34,294 nucleotides of DNA from Candidatus Thorarchaeota archaeon (GCA_004376265.1 SOKL01000224.1:1-34294); one strand, 5' to 3'; shown: positions 2,370 to 9,706, counted from the stretch's first letter. Notes: generated by a model from the letters alone, not told the origin. Numbers and translations: made by a program.

Positions 2370-2407
2370 TTTATGACACCTGTCTTTCTCTCTGGGGACC
2401 GTCTAGA

Positions 2408-2425
2408 CTTTGCTTTTAAGCAAAG
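2408..2425 (-). promoter_or_regulatory. Dyad-symmetric TATA region upstream of eL34
   Basis: The sequence CTTTGCTTTTAAGCAAAG is a perfect inverted repeat with 8-bp arms and a 2-bp centre. Its centre gives a minus-strand TATA-like TTAAAAG about 45-50 bases before the eL34 start, which is compatible with a start site near 2390. The right arm belongs to the 177-bp duplication and the left arm is unique to this copy, so the insertion junction itself may have created this promoter or operator. It could equally act as a hairpin. Confidence 0.4.
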
Positions 2426-2594
2426 CGGTGTCGACGGAAAACTTGGTCCTAATCTATTGCAAAGTCAGGTGGATACATTGTGAAGTAGCCAATGATGATT
2501 GCAAGAATCACACCGCCTGGTATCAGACCCCGTCCCGTGGTCTTTCCTACCCTCACACCCACAAACAGCATTATTGTTCCTATTGAAATCACAA
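2418..2594. repeat. 177-bp direct repeat, copy A
   Basis: This segment matches 3716-3892 in the same orientation without gaps. By hand count 156 of 177 bases agree, including exact blocks of 39 and 29 bases. The two copies flank the CPBP protease gene at a constant offset of 1298 bases. Copy A is the damaged copy because it holds only the 3' part of the small membrane protein gene. Confidence 0.9.
2449..2594 (-). pseudogene. Truncated copy of the small membrane protein gene at 3747-4001
   Basis: Reading the minus strand in the frame of the intact gene gives IMLFVGVRVGKTTGRGLIPG and then GVILAIIIGYF, ending at the same TAG. This is the C-terminal half of the 84-residue protein, with a few substitutions such as D to G. 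Upstream of 2594 the similarity stops and the frame has no ATG before a TGA, so the N-terminal half is missing. An internal ATG could give about 43 residues, so a short product cannot be excluded. Most likely this is debris from a duplication. Confidence 0.75.
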
Positions 2595-2662
2595 TTTTCT
2601 CATAGTGCAAAAGACTTGTTAGTCAGTTCCTAGGAATTTAGACGCGTCATATTGGAACATTA

Positions 2663-3601
2663 ATGAGCCATGTCAAAACACCTCAGGAAGCTTGCATTAA
2701 GTTGGAGAATGAAAAGACAGGGATAAATCCAGAACAAGAAACCAAGGTTGCTGTAGAAACTAACATCAGCCCTACAACAAAAGGAGGACTCCTGATAATC
2801 CTCATTGCGTGCAGTTTTCTTGTCCTTGTTGTGGGTGGATACAATAATTTTCTACCTGCTGACATGACACTCCTCGTTAGAGTAAGTGTAGTATTCGTTC
2901 TTCTTCTACCAACTATCTTTCTCTACAAATCAGAAGGAAGATGGAAAGAGTACTGGAAGTTATCATTCTCATTTCTGATTGTGTCAATTGGACTAGTAGT
3001 GGCTTGGTTAGTCGGAACACTGTACGCACTTTTCCCAGGTCTCTCACCAAGCACTGTAGAAGGTGTAGCAGTATTAAAGGTCGTAGAAGTCCTCCCCATT
3101 GTCTTAACTATTCTTGTGGGCATGTGGTTGGTTGAGAAGGATTTTGCTCCAATCTTTTTACGCGGAGGTAACATCAAAAAGAGTTTCAAACTCGGTCTCC
3201 TCGTTTCTCCTGCTGCACTGTTACTTGTTATTCCTCTTGGTTTTCTAGGTCTCACCGTTAGCTTAGGGGTTGCAGTTTCATGGATGCCTTGGTTGTGTCT
3301 CTTCGCAATCAGCAATGCGTTCTACGAGGAACTTATGATCAGGGGTCTATTCCTTAGGAAATACGACTCTCTATTTGGTCCAAGACAGTCTCTGCTTCTG
3401 ACATCTTTCATTTTCGCAATGCTACACATCTCAATAATTGGACTTGCTGATTTAGTTACTTTCTCACTCTACTTTGGACTCAGCTTTATGCTGGGAGTGC
3501 TGTGGGCATATGTGATTCAGAAATCGGACAACATCTGGGGTGCAGTGCTTGCTCACACAATTGCTGACATCTTATTCGTACTCACAGTGTTTGGAGTATA
3601 A
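2663..3601 (+). CDS. CPBP family intramembrane metalloprotease
   Basis: This is a multi-pass membrane protein of the CPBP (CAAX prenyl protease 2/bacteriocin-processing, Abi) family. The key residues are present: Glu222-Glu223 and Arg227 in YEELMIRG, His255 in AMLHIS, and His298 with Asp302 in AHTIAD, all near membrane segments as in the family. About 40 charged N-terminal residues precede the first of roughly eight hydrophobic stretches. Such proteins cleave within the membrane; substrates in archaea are largely unknown. It is the only plus-strand gene in this stretch and sits between the two copies of the 177-bp repeat inside the ribosomal cluster, which suggests it arrived by insertion. 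Its substrate cannot be told from the sequence. Confidence 0.88.
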   Translation: MSHVKTPQEACIKLENEKTGINPEQETKVAVETNISPTTKGGLLIILIACSFLVLVVGGYNNFLPADMTLLVRVSVVFVLLLPTIFLYKSEGRWKEYWKLSFSFLIVSIGLVVAWLVGTLYALFPGLSPSTVEGVAVLKVVEVLPIVLTILVGMWLVEKDFAPIFLRGGNIKKSFKLGLLVSPAALLLVIPLGFLGLTVSLGVAVSWMPWLCLFAISNAFYEELMIRGLFLRKYDSLFGPRQSLLLTSFIFAMLHISIIGLADLVTFSLYFGLSFMLGVLWAYVIQKSDNIWGAVLAHTIADILFVLTVFGV

Positions 3602-3672
3602 GCACGAGACAGAATGTTGCACTTAATCTGTAGAATCCCTGGTCATCTCTTGAATACGAATAGCGGGCTAAC

Positions 3673-3710
3673 GTTTAGTCTGTAAGCACCTGACTTCTCA
3701 TAATTCACTC
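3673..3710 (-). pseudogene. Possible remnant of the 3' end of the DUF106/EMC3 gene
   Basis: On the minus strand this reads ATG AGA AGT CAG GTG CTT ACA GAC TAA, i.e. MRSQVLTD. The real DUF106 gene ends MGTQVLTS. About 30 of 38 bases match 7178-7215. This looks like a small duplicated piece of that gene's end lying next to repeat copy B. The match is short and could be chance. Confidence 0.35.
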
Positions 3711-3715
3711 CTTTC

Positions 3716-3892
3716 AAGCAAAGCGGTGTCGACGGAAAACTTGGTCCTAATCTACGTTGAAGGCAGGTGGATATAATGTGAAGTAGGCAATGATGATTGC
3801 AAGAATCACACCCCCTAGAATCAGATCTCGTCCTGTGGTCTTTCCTACCCTCACACCCACAAACAGCATGATTGCTCCTATCAGTATCACAA
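3716..3892. repeat. 177-bp direct repeat, copy B
   Basis: This is the partner of 2418-2594. It covers the last 49 codons of the intact small membrane protein gene plus about 30 bases beyond its stop codon. The 39-base identical block spans the stop codon and downstream bases, which is more conserved than most of the coding part. Confidence 0.9.
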
Positions 3893-4001
3893 GGAATGAT
3901 GATGCTCTTCCTATGAACAACAAGAAGCCCCAGATCTCTTCAAAGTAGCCACCAATCAATCTAGCAAACTCTGTCAAGGGGCTCAATAATTGCAGTATCA
4001 T
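3747..4001 (-). CDS. Small two-helix membrane protein
   Basis: I do not recognise a named family. The 84-residue protein has an amphipathic N-terminus and two strong membrane segments, at about 26-50 (ending MLFVGVRV) and 60-78 (GGVILAIIIAYF). They are joined by a short basic loop GKTTGRD. A truncated duplicate exists at 2449-2594. Its ATG overlaps the stop of a short upstream reading frame (TAATG at 4003-3999), which suggests translational coupling to a now-broken gene. It is not in the ORF set normally found in the archaeal ribosomal cluster, so it belongs to the inserted island. Confidence 0.7.
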   Translation of the reverse strand: MILQLLSPLTEFARLIGGYFEEIWGFLLFIGRASSFLVILIGAIMLFVGVRVGKTTGRDLILGGVILAIIIAYFTLYPPAFNVD

Positions 4002-4162
4002 TACTTATCAGACATGCGTCGTGAAGCCCATCCGGCAGACTTTGCAGTATCAAATGCCTCCTTGGTGATAACTGCGAGGCCATCATCCACGGGTCACTGT
4101 CTGCCCTTGATCCACAGGCACACATTCCTTCCTCCTGAATCCGTGAAGTAAAGGACCTTCAT
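4001..4162 (-). pseudogene. Short broken reading frame ahead of the small membrane gene
   Basis: On the minus strand an ATG opens MKVLYFTDSGGRNVCLWIKG and continues to RQ, then meets an in-frame TGA. The same frame carries on as PVDDGLAVITKEAFDTAKSA and so on to a TAA that overlaps the ATG of the next gene. The amino-acid composition looks protein-like on both sides of the TGA. It could be a decayed gene, a sequencing error, or a small protein restarting at the GTG after the stop. No family was recognised. Confidence 0.35.
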
Positions 4163-4170
4163 TAACATGA

Positions 4171-4235
4171 GTTGCATAAAATAGGTTAATTTATATTCTC
4201 ACACGTATAATAGTTGCATGAAATTGGTTAACTTA
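4171..4235. promoter_or_regulatory. Promoter of the HTH gene with paired 23-bp direct repeats
   Basis: Two imperfect direct repeats, GTTGCATAAAATAGGTTAAT plus TTA (4171-4193) and GTTGCATGAAATTGGTTAAC plus TTA (4213-4235), agree at 20 of 23 positions and lie 42 bases apart, four helical turns. A TATA box (AATTTATATT, 4188-4197) sits at the end of the first repeat. The start codon, at 4218, lies within the second, about 25 bases from the TATA box. This predicts a leaderless mRNA and an autoregulated promoter. Confidence 0.5.
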
Positions 4236-4718
4236 CTACGATGTGGTTTCACAATGTTCTCGCATTTCCGTTATCCTACAAAACAGCAAAGTCTCATCTG
4301 GTTAAAGAGAAGGAGAAATGTTCCTCCCTCAGTAATTGCAAAAGAGCTGAAAGTATCGCGCCCATTTGTTAGCCAGGCCCAAAAGATTGCAGAGGGTCGA
4401 ATCAAGAAGCTACTACTTACTGCAGCTCAGATGAATAGGATTTCTGTTGAAAATATAAATCCTGAATTTGGTTTTGCAATAGGATACAACCCTGCAACTG
4501 ATGCGAAGACGTACATTACCTATTCCCCTGAATTTAGGGTACAGGTTTGGTTTGATCATGAAGGTAATTGTAACAAATGCGAGTTGCACTCTGAGTGTGA
4601 TAGGATTCTCCGAGGACTAGCTGTAGAATGGGGATTCTCTATTCCTAAAGAGATGGACCCAACACAGGTAGCTAAAACTCTGTTCAATAAAATCAAGGGG
4701 GCGCTTGGATGGGAGTAG
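4218..4718 (+). CDS. HTH protein with C-terminal cysteine cluster
   Basis: This 166-residue protein has a helix-turn-helix at about residues 35-58 (PSVIAKELKVSRPFVSQAQK), the layout of a sequence-specific DNA-binding regulator. Its C-terminal part contains CNKCELHSEC (Cys118, Cys121, Cys127), which could bind zinc or an Fe-S cluster; a fourth ligand is not obvious. The predicted TATA box is about 25 bases before the ATG, so the mRNA is probably leaderless; an ATG 12 codons later is the alternative. It overlaps the next gene by 10 bases, so the two are one operon. I infer it regulates its own operon through the flanking direct repeats. No named family was recognised. Confidence 0.75.
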   Translation: MKLVNLLRCGFTMFSHFRYPTKQQSLIWLKRRRNVPPSVIAKELKVSRPFVSQAQKIAEGRIKKLLLTAAQMNRISVENINPEFGFAIGYNPATDAKTYITYSPEFRVQVWFDHEGNCNKCELHSECDRILRGLAVEWGFSIPKEMDPTQVAKTLFNKIKGALGWE

Positions 4719-6691
4719 AGAAACCGAAAAGCAAGCTTTCTGCATTTATCACAAGGGCATGTCGTTTACCAAAAGAGGTTGCTGGTAGAGTTGGTAATCT
4801 ATCAGATACGATGGCAAAAGAACGACTCAAAGCAATCCAATCACAAAACAATATTCCCTACAAGTATCTGACTGCTGCAATCCTTATCTTACTCTACCTA
4901 CCATGGATGATTTCACTCACTTGCGTTATTCCTCCACAGATTGAAGTGGTATTCGGAAGTGAAGTGGATTCTGAATCTTACAGTAATATTATCTCTACTT
5001 CCGAAGTAGGTGTTACTCATGCTGTACTTCTGAATACAACTCCTTTCTCCTTCAATGGTGACTGGGAGTTGGATCCTAATCGGTATTGGAATCAGTACGA
5101 TTTCTACAGCTATGGGTGGAATGATTCAGATGGCTACCATTTTACATCTTCACCTTCTGATTACGCCGACATTATCGTAATAGAACGCACAATGCAAATT
5201 CCAATCGCAAATTATTCTGAACTTACAGTTTCAGCTGTGTTCGAAGGTGTTTCAGGGTCCGCAGGAATTTTCTTTGAAGTCTTTGCTGACGATGCTCGAG
5301 CTGTTCAAGAAGATCTATTTCTACCCGGTAACATCACAACGGTGAATGTAACAGCGCCACTCTCTATTGCAAAACTTACAAGTGACTCTTGGCTTTGTAC
5401 GATTGTTTACCGCTTACAAATTTGGGTGACTGAAGAGTCCCACGTTAAGTTGCGAGGTATTATAATTAATGCTGAATTCACGGGAAAGATGAGCCTGGTT
5501 CAACTTGATTTCAAGAGTACCGATAATACCAGTTTCTATGAGAATCCATACATGAAATTTGCTAAGTATGCTCCCAGACTTGCGATAATTCAGAATAATG
5601 ATTATATTTCTCAAAGCACCTATTTTCCAAATCGTGTAGACGATGAGATTTATCTTCCTCCAGGAACATACGAGGGCGTCGCATATTGGAATCTTGCCAC
5701 TCAAGATCCACCTGATCCTTACAATTCATCCACGTGGGTTCCCAATGTCAATTTCGTAGTAACTGAAGATATTGTTATGGAGGTTGATGTTGGACTCTTT
5801 GCCAAACGGATCGATTTTGATGTTTCACCCTCAGTGCTTCTTCGGGGTTTATCACTCCGTTTTGTAGACGATTTCCAATATAGTGAGTCCACAGAGATTT
5901 CAGGATCAACTGTATATTCCCAAATTCCTGACTATCTCTATATCCCGGGTGAGATTGAATCTCTCTCCATTTGGCTATCTACATGGTCTTATTTGGACCC
6001 CCAAGGTGGATATGGTTGGGTACCTTTTGAACAATTTCGGATTGAAGAGGACATCACTATTGGTTCGAACAACAGATCAAGGAATCTTCAATTTAGCGTC
6101 ACCCTTCCATACACCACAATAGGTGGAGTCCTTTTTGGATTAGGTGAGTTTGTAATTCTTACCGTTATTCTGTTGCTAGTGGTTGGTTTTCTCATATCAT
6201 TACGGAGAACACTTCGATACTCCGATATACGTCATAGACTATCAGATTCTAGGATACTACCGTTAATCATGCTAAGTGCTGGTGTCTTTCTACCTTGGAG
6301 TATACAGCTTGCACAAACAACTAATTCAGGTTACGATGGAGTTTCTTGGTTTTCGTGGTTTTCGATGCCATTCATGATCAGGTGGAGTGACAGCACTGCG
6401 ATACAGATGCTATTATCCACTCCTGACTGGTGGTATGCTTCACTGTCCTTCACAATGTTTCTCTTCATCCCTCTATGTTATGGATATCTCTCATTGGTAT
6501 CTATTGAAAGTGATAAGTTCAACAAGACCTTTGCTTTAGCCCTATTATTACCCTATCTTGTTGTGTTAGCTTATTTCAATCAGCCAGCATTAAATCTAGG
6601 TACTATATCACTTGGTCCAATAGTTGCTATGGCAGCATTACCAGTGTGGTTGTTGACATTGGGTTTGCGAAAACTTGGAATTACTACGTAA
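4709..6691 (+). CDS. Large membrane protein with big extracytoplasmic domain
   Basis: This protein has 660 residues and no family I recognise. A basic cytoplasmic tail of about 50 residues precedes one membrane segment (53-73, TAAILILLYLPWMIS). A region of roughly 400 residues follows, rich in Tyr, Trp, Ser, Asn and beta-type strands and typical of a secreted domain. From about 474 to the end come four to five further membrane segments (for example FVILTVILLLVVGFLISL). The layout resembles a surface sensor or cell-envelope protein. It overlaps the upstream HTH gene by 10 bases, so the pair is co-translated and probably functionally linked. No transporter, kinase or protease motif is visible. 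Confidence 0.75.
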   Translation: MGVEKPKSKLSAFITRACRLPKEVAGRVGNLSDTMAKERLKAIQSQNNIPYKYLTAAILILLYLPWMISLTCVIPPQIEVVFGSEVDSESYSNIISTSEVGVTHAVLLNTTPFSFNGDWELDPNRYWNQYDFYSYGWNDSDGYHFTSSPSDYADIIVIERTMQIPIANYSELTVSAVFEGVSGSAGIFFEVFADDARAVQEDLFLPGNITTVNVTAPLSIAKLTSDSWLCTIVYRLQIWVTEESHVKLRGIIINAEFTGKMSLVQLDFKSTDNTSFYENPYMKFAKYAPRLAIIQNNDYISQSTYFPNRVDDEIYLPPGTYEGVAYWNLATQDPPDPYNSSTWVPNVNFVVTEDIVMEVDVGLFAKRIDFDVSPSVLLRGLSLRFVDDFQYSESTEISGSTVYSQIPDYLYIPGEIESLSIWLSTWSYLDPQGGYGWVPFEQFRIEEDITIGSNNRSRNLQFSVTLPYTTIGGVLFGLGEFVILTVILLLVVGFLISLRRTLRYSDIRHRLSDSRILPLIMLSAGVFLPWSIQLAQTTNSGYDGVSWFSWFSMPFMIRWSDSTAIQMLLSTPDWWYASLSFTMFLFIPLCYGYLSLVSIESDKFNKTFALALLLPYLVVLAYFNQPALNLGTISLGPIVAMAALPVWLLTLGLRKLGITT

Positions 6692-7180
6692 AACTAGTGG
6701 CATCTGTCGAGGAGCCGCACGTCATATCATCAAGGGAGTCAGTAAGCCCATGAGAAACACCAATCCAGTGGGAATCGAAATCATCCAGAACCCAATAGGA
6801 TCTATCACCCATATTGGTTCTCCAAACCCTAGACTTGGATAAAGCACATTTCATGGATGTAAAACTCAACAAGGCCAAGTGATACTAAATCCTGTTTTGA
6901 ATAAACCGAAGAAAAAAGAGGACTCGCGGACTGACTGAACCGCGTTCCCGCATCGATGTGTGACTTCTCGATGGTCGTTATCACGATGAAATCAGTGTCC
7001 TTCTTAATGGATGGTACTCAACAAGTGTGACTGAAAGTAATAGAGTCTACGTGTCAGATGAAGAGTTGGAAACTCCTCGTATTCTCTCATTATAACACGA
7101 TACGTTTGGCATCTCTAATATAGGATAGGGGTGGATGATTATCTGATTAGGAACGTATTGCTCCCTGAGTCAGTGGCTGT
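6692..7180. other. 489-base spacer, mostly featureless gene debris
   Basis: No convincing gene lies here. On the minus strand 6722-6847 encodes an isolated hydrophobic stretch (GFWMISIPTGLVFLMGLLTP) closed by stops at both ends, which looks like the tail of a decayed membrane protein. The rest has no long frame, no tRNA-like fold and no obvious repeat. It is the left margin of the conserved DUF106-side genes, so this is probably the insertion boundary of the island. Confidence 0.6.
6722..6847 (-). pseudogene. Hydrophobic gene fragment
   Basis: The frame runs from a possible GTG (6847) to TGA (6722) and gives about 41 residues, VLYPSLGFGEP... then WMISIPTGLVFLMGLLTP. A stop codon lies immediately upstream. 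Its composition fits the last membrane helix of a larger protein. It could be chance. Confidence 0.25.
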
Positions 7181-7750
7181 TTAGCTTGTAAGCACTTGAG
7201 TTCCCATTATTCGCTGAAGAATACTGCTCAAACCTAAACCAACTATGAAATAAAATCCGTAGAAGCTAAGACCAAACCCTGCTGCAGTGGGAGCACCAAG
7301 CATTCCGACTAGGAAAGGTAGGACTTTCTGGATATTGAATGGGAGAATAACAACTATGTCGTCAACTGCTATGCCGTCAAGTCCCACCGTGCTGTAGAAT
7401 CCTCTCAGGAACGAGAATATGAAGATGAATGGTATGAAGAATAGCAATGATGGTTTACATCTTGCCCCCATCATTGATCTCTGAATGCGATCGATGTACG
7501 CCTTTCTTTTCTTGAGTTTCTTGAGGAGCTTCTCGTTCTGTGTTTTCTTTGCTTCCTGCTCCATTTCTTTGAACCTTTTAATTTCCGCTTGTTGTTTGTT
7601 CAGTCGTCGCATATCCGTGAAACGTTTCATAGCGAGGTTACTCATTGTTGAAATACTCAGCGAAACCATCAGAATAAAAATACCCGCCATAGGGGGTTCC
7701 TTGAAGGTGAGAGTGAGCCATATCATTATGTCGCCAAATATATCCTGCAT
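7181..7750 (-). CDS. DUF106 / EMC3-TMCO1-YidC superfamily membrane protein
   Basis: This is the archaeal DUF106 protein, an Oxa1/YidC/EMC3 superfamily relative thought to help insert membrane proteins next to SecY. In 189 residues it has an N-terminal helix (about 22-40), a long charged coiled-coil with KKTQNEKLLKKLKKRKAYID (about 45-95), and then hydrophobic segments from about 103 with LLFFIPFIFIFSFL and a C-terminal pair. This is the N-out, coiled-coil, three-helix plan of the family. It sits just after adenylate kinase (6-base gap), the conserved secY-adk-DUF106 order. The next gene of that order, eL34, lies 4.8 kb away because of the island. Confidence 0.88.
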   Translation of the reverse strand: MQDIFGDIMIWLTLTFKEPPMAGIFILMVSLSISTMSNLAMKRFTDMRRLNKQQAEIKRFKEMEQEAKKTQNEKLLKKLKKRKAYIDRIQRSMMGARCKPSLLFFIPFIFIFSFLRGFYSTVGLDGIAVDDIVVILPFNIQKVLPFLVGMLGAPTAAGFGLSFYGFYFIVGLGLSSILQRIMGTQVLTS

Positions 7751-8347: not shown

Positions 8348-8412
8348 TGAGTGGATTCACCATCCATCGAAGAATAGGCGCTGGTTAGATGTACCTGTTA
8401 TAAAGTCTGCTC

Positions 8413-9387
8413 CTAATCAAGCAACCGTTTCAGGGTCCTGCAAATGACTAGATTGACCCAGAGGTTCTGACTCTTGTCACTCGTACCTCGCACTAGGTGG
8501 ATGTCCCAGAGACCGTGCTTCTTTTGATGTTCAATAAACCAATCAACTCCTTCACGAATCTGTGGGTGGTCTGCTGATAATCCCAATTGAGAGAGTGTGT
8601 CGAGAGCAGAAAGAAGATCCGTGAACCAGAATGGGAATGAGAACCTCGTCCAATATTCAGGTTTTTTTCTGTCGGTGTACGCATCCGCCTTGAAAATGCG
8701 TGACGCTAAGAGATCGCCAGCCTTCTTTACTTCTGGTCGTTTACAGTATACTGGATGAGCTGCAAACGCCCTTAGCACAATACCTGTCACCATGTGTGAG
8801 AATGGTTTGCTTCTATCATGCTCTACAAGATCTTTTCGAGCCATTGTCTCTTTGATTCTAAGATTGGCTGTCCTGAATGGGATTACCCAACCCCCATCTT
8901 CTTGGCGAATCGATAGCAACCATTTGAGTCCCAACTCAATGCGCTTGTCATCTTCATATCCCGCCTTGATGAGCAATTCCATGAATGCTGCAGAATAAGT
9001 TGGCGTATACTGGTTCCAATACACACCACGAAAATCTCCCTCGTCTGTCTGACAGCTGAACAAGAACTCAGCAGCCTTCTCCATAGCTGGATGGTTCCTG
9101 TTCAGGAGATATTTCTCAATCAGTATAGCTAGGATCCTGAAGGTTTCCACTTGGTTGTATCCCTTGATTGACCTGATGTCGACCTTGGGATTTGGATATC
9201 GCCAAGAGCCATCTTCCTGTTGTTTCCTGAGAAACCGTGCTGCCTTTTTTGTTTCCCAGAGATGTTCCACCGAATCTTGTTCTTCATCGAAAAGATCGCG
9301 GGACACTTGATACCTAATGGCTTCATCAGAAGCAGACCCGAGTAATGGAATTGGGTCATATCTCAGGTGACTACGCCATTTATCCAC
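8413..9387 (-). CDS. Alpha/alpha-toroid (prenyltransferase/terpene-cyclase-like) protein
   Basis: This 324-residue protein contains repeated QW-type motifs: RKQQEDGSWRYP, CQTDEGDFRG and IRQEDGGWVIP. They are spaced by helix-rich stretches as in the alpha/alpha barrel of squalene-hopene cyclases, prenyltransferase beta subunits and related lyases. The DxDD motif of cyclases is not visible and there is no signal peptide, so this is a cytosolic toroid protein of unknown substrate. The start is a GTG with GGAGTG nine bases upstream. It is not part of the usual ribosomal cluster and interrupts secY-adk. A CTATATAG element shared with the divergent gene at 9474 lies 65 bases upstream. Confidence 0.75.
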   Translation of the reverse strand: MDKWRSHLRYDPIPLLGSASDEAIRYQVSRDLFDEEQDSVEHLWETKKAARFLRKQQEDGSWRYPNPKVDIRSIKGYNQVETFRILAILIEKYLLNRNHPAMEKAAEFLFSCQTDEGDFRGVYWNQYTPTYSAAFMELLIKAGYEDDKRIELGLKWLLSIRQEDGGWVIPFRTANLRIKETMARKDLVEHDRSKPFSHMVTGIVLRAFAAHPVYCKRPEVKKAGDLLASRIFKADAYTDRKKPEYWTRFSFPFWFTDLLSALDTLSQLGLSADHPQIREGVDWFIEHQKKHGLWDIHLVRGTSDKSQNLWVNLVICRTLKRLLD

Positions 9388-9451
9388 GGATTATTCACTC
9401 CTAACTTAGCACCTGACTTCTACAATTAGATTTATGACATTTACCCTTGAA

Positions 9452-9459
9452 CTATATAG
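9452..9459. promoter_or_regulatory. Symmetric TATA element between divergent genes
   Basis: CTATATAG is self-complementary and could serve the minus-strand toroid gene (start codon 65 bases away, good spacing) and less easily the plus-strand small membrane gene, whose TTG is only 15 bases away. The shared sequence AGAAGTCAGGTGCT, also found at 3685-3698, lies in the minus-strand leader. Confidence 0.4.
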
Positions 9460-9473
9460 GGAAGGGAGTTAAT

Positions 9474-9692
9474 TTGCAGCACTTTCGATTCACAATTCTC
9501 ATTGTGATGCATCTCTGGTTTTCAATGTTGCTTCAGGACACTATCATTCCCACTCCCCCTGAGATAGACAGTAGACCCATTAACCTCTCTCTGGGTCCTA
9601 TCATTGGCGTCGTAGTGCTTTTGATTTTGATTTTCTTGAAACAGTGGAAAAAGGAAGAAAATAATCAAGGGAAGACGCTTGTCTTCCCCTAA
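9474..9692 (+). CDS. Small membrane protein
   Basis: This is a 72-residue reading frame from a TTG preceded by GGGAAGGGAG, with a hydrophobic N-terminus (FTILIVMHLWFSMLL) and a membrane segment near residues 42-58 (GPIIGVVVLLILIFL) followed by a lysine-rich tail. The track starts nine codons earlier at another TTG, and an ATG at 9507 is also possible. No family was recognised. It is the only plus-strand gene between adk and secY and ends just 14 bases before the convergent secY stop. The hydrophobic pattern and clean fit between neighbours suggest a real gene, but short length leaves doubt. Confidence 0.5.
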   Translation: MQHFRFTILIVMHLWFSMLLQDTIIPTPPEIDSRPINLSLGPIIGVVVLLILIFLKQWKKEENNQGKTLVFP

Positions 9693-9706
9693 TTCATCTA
9701 TATGTT

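Follow-up and report, generated by a model that had tools for sequence, protein, structure and literature searches.

To our knowledge, transcription regulators of archaea that are coupled to the membrane are few and poorly known. The closest described systems are Tfx-type regulators and sigma/anti-sigma pairs. EnfR (TON_1525; 8HNO, 8HNP) is a dimeric Tfx protein whose best structural match is region 4 of sigma-L bound to the anti-sigma factor RslA, and it combines a sigma-70 region-4-like HTH with a long stem helix, an alpha/beta head and a palindromic operator (PMC10570040). The SigI-RsgI systems have a constant inner part, a variable ectodomain and multiple paralogous pairs (PMC12203970). 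The window analyzed here, a stretch of 34,294 nucleotides from a Candidatus Thorarchaeota archaeon, is one entire contig (G000:C188) of a genome of 3.04 Mb in 393 contigs, and it contains an HTH gene followed by a membrane protein gene, bigM, which very probably form a conserved two-gene regulatory cassette. The cassette is apparently undescribed; we found no description of such a pairing in the papers searched. Its regulator is predicted to resemble Tfx and EnfR in the HTH, the long stem helix and the alpha/beta head, and may likewise have a palindromic operator, but has an extra strand, a His/Cys3 motif and a regular membrane partner, and it scored below the Tfx cut-off with a weak fold match. 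With SigI-RsgI and other sigma/anti-sigma pairs, the cassette shares a soluble regulator with a co-encoded membrane partner, a constant cytosolic N terminus and swapped outer domains. Unlike SigI-RsgI, however, it is archaeal, its HTH protein is not a sigma factor, its target is apparently only local, and the inner part is a tail of about 30 to 60 residues with one cysteine rather than a folded domain. Archaeal RNA polymerase uses TFB, and the likeness of the HTH protein itself to sigma factors is confined to the region-4-like HTH.

Layers between eL34 and EMC3

The start of eL34 (2369, minus strand) and the stop of EMC3/DUF106 (7181, minus strand) are separated by 4.81 kb with genes on both strands, in agreement with a preliminary description that had given about 4.8 kb of extra DNA. 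This composite island (2370 to 7180, no strand assigned) has a GC content of ~41 to 43%, compared to 44 to 46% in the flanks. When the locus was compared across 20 relatives, as had been proposed, most same-genus genomes had near-empty or sm-only sites and the island was not common to all. A spacing of ~75 to 110 bp without sm was found in 9 same-genus genomes (exception, G008 with 250 bp), and one small two-TM gene, sm, lies 3′ of EMC3 in 6 sister genomes, in 4 of which (G006, G009, G011 and G015) it stands alone before eL34. The island is a genuine lineage-specific insertion. In G002 and G003, an ABC transporter gene follows sm in the gap, and a second contig of G002 carries a permease gene, the eL34 promoter and eL34, apparently the far end of that insert. 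In G022, which belongs to another genus, the same place is taken by a gene for 295 residues that looks kinase-like by eye. Since sm, ABC transporter and kinase-like genes occupy the gap in other genomes, it is a recurrent insertion point. In G031, also of another genus, sm likewise lies between EMC3 and eL34.

Read on the minus strand, EMC3 is followed in turn by bigM-HTH, smB, a decayed promoter copy, a 37-nt EMC3 tail, CPBP, smA, the eL34 promoter and eL34. The BRE/TATA-like eL34 promoter CACCGCTTTGCTTAAAAG (2413 to 2430, minus strand) is intact and identical at 18/18 positions before eL34 in seven relatives, and therefore, the inserts fall between transcription units. The preliminary description had seen an essential operon split by unrelated DNA; accessory DNA was indeed inserted, but between two transcription units, with the eL34 promoter intact and the gap filled in other genomes too. 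Accessory DNA can thus settle within the ribosomal cluster at places where one transcription unit ends and the next begins, with none broken, which removes the apparent paradox.

Remnants within the island point to its history. smA (2452 to 2594, minus strand) is a 5′-truncated duplicate of the two-TM gene, and the corresponding direct repeat of 182 nt (2413 to 2594 and 3711 to 3892) is 88% identical, whereas the sm genes of relatives are only 70 to 76% identical to smB; the duplication should therefore be recent in the lineage of the window. smB (3747 to 4001, minus strand) encodes an intact two-TM protein with 66 to 86% identity to proteins encoded at the same site in six genomes. It is followed by a decayed copy of the eL34 promoter (3711 to 3728, minus strand; TTAAAAG changed to TTGAAAG), right after which comes a remnant of the EMC3 3′ end (3673 to 3709, minus strand; 81% over 37 nt to 7179 to 7215), the mark of a tandem-duplication junction. 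A further gene remnant (6731 to 6850, best strand minus) has 60 to 72% amino acid identity to short stretches in several genomes of the genus. The gene fragments mentioned in the preliminary description are thus the truncated sm, the EMC3 3′-end copy and this remnant, and its observation that all intact products except the HTH protein are membrane proteins (CPBP, sm and bigM) was confirmed. Insertion as a single block is ruled out by the sm repeats and the EMC3 tail. The island consists of three layers, namely, a tandem duplication of ~0.5 kb comprising EMC3 tail, sm and eL34 promoter, CPBP in one copy and HTH-bigM in the other, and the simplest history would be the duplication followed by the two insertions. 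The sm product is an 84-aa two-TM protein of a family with 1 to 6 copies in every genome of family f1 searched.

The CPBP/Rce1-like intramembrane protease gene (2663 to 3601, plus strand; PF02517, E = 2e-15) exceeds the gathering cut-off (57.3 versus 22.4 bits) and is by score an ordinary member of its family, with relatives at other loci (43 to 67% identity). It was also considered as a member of the cassette, but close relatives lack the Cys tail described below and CQKPP was found only in a 27%-identical homologue in G007; there is no sign that CPBP is more than a neighbor. The suggestion that the island is a membrane-related system placed beside the Sec/EMC3 genes was not supported: its parts arrived separately, homologues of CPBP and HTH-bigM occur at unrelated loci in relatives, and there is no recurrence with Sec genes. 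One distant HTH-bigM pair (L126, 2389 to 6549, in G030) has a second EMC3/DUF106 paralogue ~1.2 kb away, which we treat as a coincidence. Most f1 genomes encode two EMC3-type proteins.

The HTH regulator and its predicted operator

The HTH gene (4254 to 4718, plus strand) encodes a Tfx/sigma-region-4-like protein of 154 residues. Its start was moved from 4218 to 4254, a conserved ATG, because 4218 falls within an operator box. Homologues were taken from many places in the family and 22 sequences were aligned; the AlphaFold model built on this alignment (pLDDT 92.8) has an HTH, a stem helix of 25 residues and an alpha/beta head, with four strands and two helices. The order of elements agrees with the flag-stem-notehead fold of Tfx and EnfR, with poor superposition. 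The nearest PDB structures were those of EnfR (8HNP and 8HNO), and these matches were weak (E = 0.036, TM = 0.32 to 0.35). Against the Tfx family (TIGR00721), the protein reached 15.7 bits, below the cut-off of 60.25 bits, and 13/22 members matched weakly.

The motif H102-x3-C106-x2-C109-x5-C115 (4557 to 4598, plus strand) is invariant in the 22 aligned sequences and kept in all but two (L242 and L243) of ~70 HTH loci. The model places H102, C106 and C109 in the loop that follows strand 4, with C115 in the next helix. The ligands of NuoG cluster N5 have the spacing H-x3-C-x2-C-x5-C, and the motif resembles the NuoG-type His/Cys3 site for a [4Fe-4S] cluster (PF10588) and the sites of IscR-like regulators. 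PF10588 gave a weak match in 7/22 members (best E = 0.011), and the gathering cut-off was not reached by any member (best, 15.6 versus 27 bits). The His/Cys3 site may hold zinc or an Fe-S cluster, or it may stay empty. PCYCGC (PF13798) was over its cut-off in one member from f20, another Asgard family (25.3 versus 25 bits), which we took as an artefact of the Cys motif. Most f1 genomes also encode a distant single-copy HTH paralogue of ~190 to 230 residues (e.g., G001:C57:13680 and G034:C1:1165062), from which the HTH of the cassette may have descended.

Upstream of the gene are two predicted operator boxes 42 bp apart, box 1 GTTGCATAAAATAGGTTAA (4171 to 4189, plus strand) and box 2 GTTGCATGAAATTGGTTAA (4213 to 4231, plus strand), both conserved upstream of HTH genes; the TATA-like sequence between them (4190 to 4197, plus strand) would belong to the core promoter. 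The boxes come in three flavors with the half-site GGTTAA common to all. The strict form of the operator pattern occurs in 34/53 HTH upstream regions and nowhere in 659 kb of background, and the other 19 upstream regions may have diverged. In the genome of the window, a search allowing up to 2 mismatches found only two box pairs, both at class-I HTH genes: the pair described here and one at the second such gene. In 12 genomes, class-I boxes were likewise confined to class-I HTH promoters, except for chance-level sites that were nearly all lone and had 2 mismatches (a control pattern gave one). By inspection, the TATA element in many f20 upstream regions is closely followed by a palindrome, for example GTTAACC-N6-GGTTAC. 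The HTH promoters have conserved palindrome-like boxes, by sequence a possible counterpart of the palindromic operator of Tfx/EnfR. That the predicted operators are confined to HTH promoters in the genomes scanned fits local autoregulation, and the position of the boxes over the core promoter points to repression.

Membrane partners and their cysteine tail

bigM (4709 to 6691, plus strand) starts 10 nt inside the HTH gene and encodes a protein of 660 residues, predicted to be N-in, with a beta-sandwich ectodomain of ~400 residues and C-terminal TMs (model pLDDT, 75.5). A fold search gave a generic beta-sandwich with adhesin/CBM-like matches only. Before TM1 is the motif ACRLP (C18; 4757 to 4771, plus strand), which is present in HTH-linked bigM homologues and absent from nine unlinked ones. 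The gene after the HTH gene begins 4 to 40 nt inside it in nearly all loci, and its products, 113 to 944 residues long with large, varied ectodomains, belong to different families (bigM, NosD-like beta-helix, propeller-like, short two-TM proteins and others). Their bodies fall into ~18 BLAST families, and the tail type tracks the HTH clade.

We compared partners with control membrane ORFs whose first TM begins by residue 75. C-x(1-4)-P was found in the N-terminal tail before TM1 in 46/49 partners and 13/178 controls; the Fisher P value of 1.9e-32 overstates independence since the loci are related. At least 5 of the 13 motif-positive controls are partner-type genes at HTH loci where the HTH gene escaped detection or is more distant (L058, L151 twice, L183 and L222). 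A simpler pattern was found in 24/30 partners and 5/572 controls. Its six misses are three members of one family with the motif at approximately residues 105 to 147, a contig-end fragment of that family, one protein with CKFP and one gene that had been mis-called and has CPLTP in its true overlapping frame. The tail has a single Cys in 45/46 partners (median residue, 17). Since the tails are basic (+5.2) and the residues after TM1 acidic (−1.9), the partners should be N-in.

For HTH homologues found in other Asgard families, the expectation of the same kind of partner and the same His/Cys3 was fixed before the sequences were fetched. In f20, both were found in 17/18 loci, with tails such as PVCLKHP, PFCLEQP and HCPQKP; the exception was L218. 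His/Cys3 is kept in all 18 f20 loci and in the single f12 locus, where the tail has a Cys without Pro. A partner was not findable at three HTH loci (L218, L240 and L241), and at L187 it lies 1.4 kb from the HTH gene. At L151 (4009 to 6565) and L146 (4005 to 6008), a single HTH gene precedes as many as four partner paralogues in tandem, mostly with the Cys tail.

Spread of the cassette and a proposed circuit

The cassette (4169 to 6711, plus strand) has 76% DNA identity over 2554 nt to a non-syntenic locus in G012. The similarity begins at 4169 with the first GTTGCATnAAATnGGTTAA box of a pair 42 bp apart and ends 20 nt after bigM, so that the shared unit is exactly operator, HTH and bigM. The recorded names of the carriers are Candidatus Thorarchaeota and Hermodarchaeota, and the cassette is found in several Asgard families. 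bigM identity is 73% between the window and G012 and 57% between G012 and its near relative G013, whereas core proteins show the opposite order. Lateral movement of the cassette would be the simplest reading of these sequences, although differential paralogue loss could also produce the incongruence at G012. A search for an ancestral site in the genome of the window gave only a weak WD40 match.

On balance, we favor layered insertions between two transcription units with, at the core, a self-contained mobile cassette whose autoregulator is in feedback with its membrane partner. The Tfx/sigma-4-like HTH protein, presumably a dimer, would bind both boxes over the core promoter of its own gene and probably repress it, and translational coupling would link its synthesis to that of the partner. 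The Cys in the basic cytosolic tail of the partner would dock on the His/Cys3 site, and the partner, through its interchangeable ectodomain or by mere abundance, would set the amount of free regulator reaching the operator, much as in a sigma/anti-sigma pair but with a local target. For a direct contact of tail and regulator, we see the chances as evenly balanced, and it is doubtful that the Cys of the partner is involved with a metal or Fe-S center. A new membrane-to-DNA switch, in which a metal or [4Fe-4S] center at His/Cys3 is bound or exchanged by the tail Cys and the state of the outer domain or redox state shifts the regulator between membrane and promoter, is accordingly put forward only tentatively, as an unlikely case. 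If true, Asgard archaea would have a set of self-wired sensors working in parallel, generated by exchange of the outer bodies. The cassette, with its own operator in several Asgard families, makes sharp predictions: one tail Cys, four head ligands and one operator.

The same gene order could also mean that the HTH protein is a mere local repressor of a surface-protein gene and that the Cys tail serves targeting, modification or assembly without ever touching the regulator. Operators only at the promoter of the module itself and partner bodies resembling surface or adhesin domains would fit, but the same tail is found on unrelated bodies when they are encoded 3′ of the HTH gene and is missing from family members without such a link, and its type follows the HTH clade; we consider this rather unlikely. 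At the other extreme, a released regulator could activate a separate regulon as in SigI/RsgI, with which the architecture of constant inner tail, variable ectodomain and several paralogous pairs agrees (PMC12203970). The restriction of the class-I operator (up to 2 mismatches, 12 genomes) to HTH promoters, lone chance-level sites aside, makes such a regulon improbable.

Overlapping, autoregulated genes that are multicopy, patchy and laterally moved are also expected of a toxin-antitoxin-like or defense cassette with an HTH antitoxin and a membrane toxin. However, the size range and large ectodomains of the partners argue against it, PADLOC gave no match to HTH, bigM or CPBP, and no viral contig matched; a defense system and a viral origin were therefore rejected, and a toxin-antitoxin-like function is quite improbable. 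An ancestral arrangement or a misassembly is highly improbable: the window does come from a MAG in many contigs with 8% contamination, but relatives have empty sites, full homologues of the cassette exist elsewhere, and the duplication remnants with the EMC3 tail are hard to produce by chimerism.

Variation in this region extends beyond the island. The gap between secY and adk (8348 to 9706) is variable among relatives, in which a toroid gene is present, absent or replaced by other genes; in the window, this gene (8413 to 9387) encodes a squalene-hopene-cyclase-like alpha/alpha toroid protein of 324 residues.
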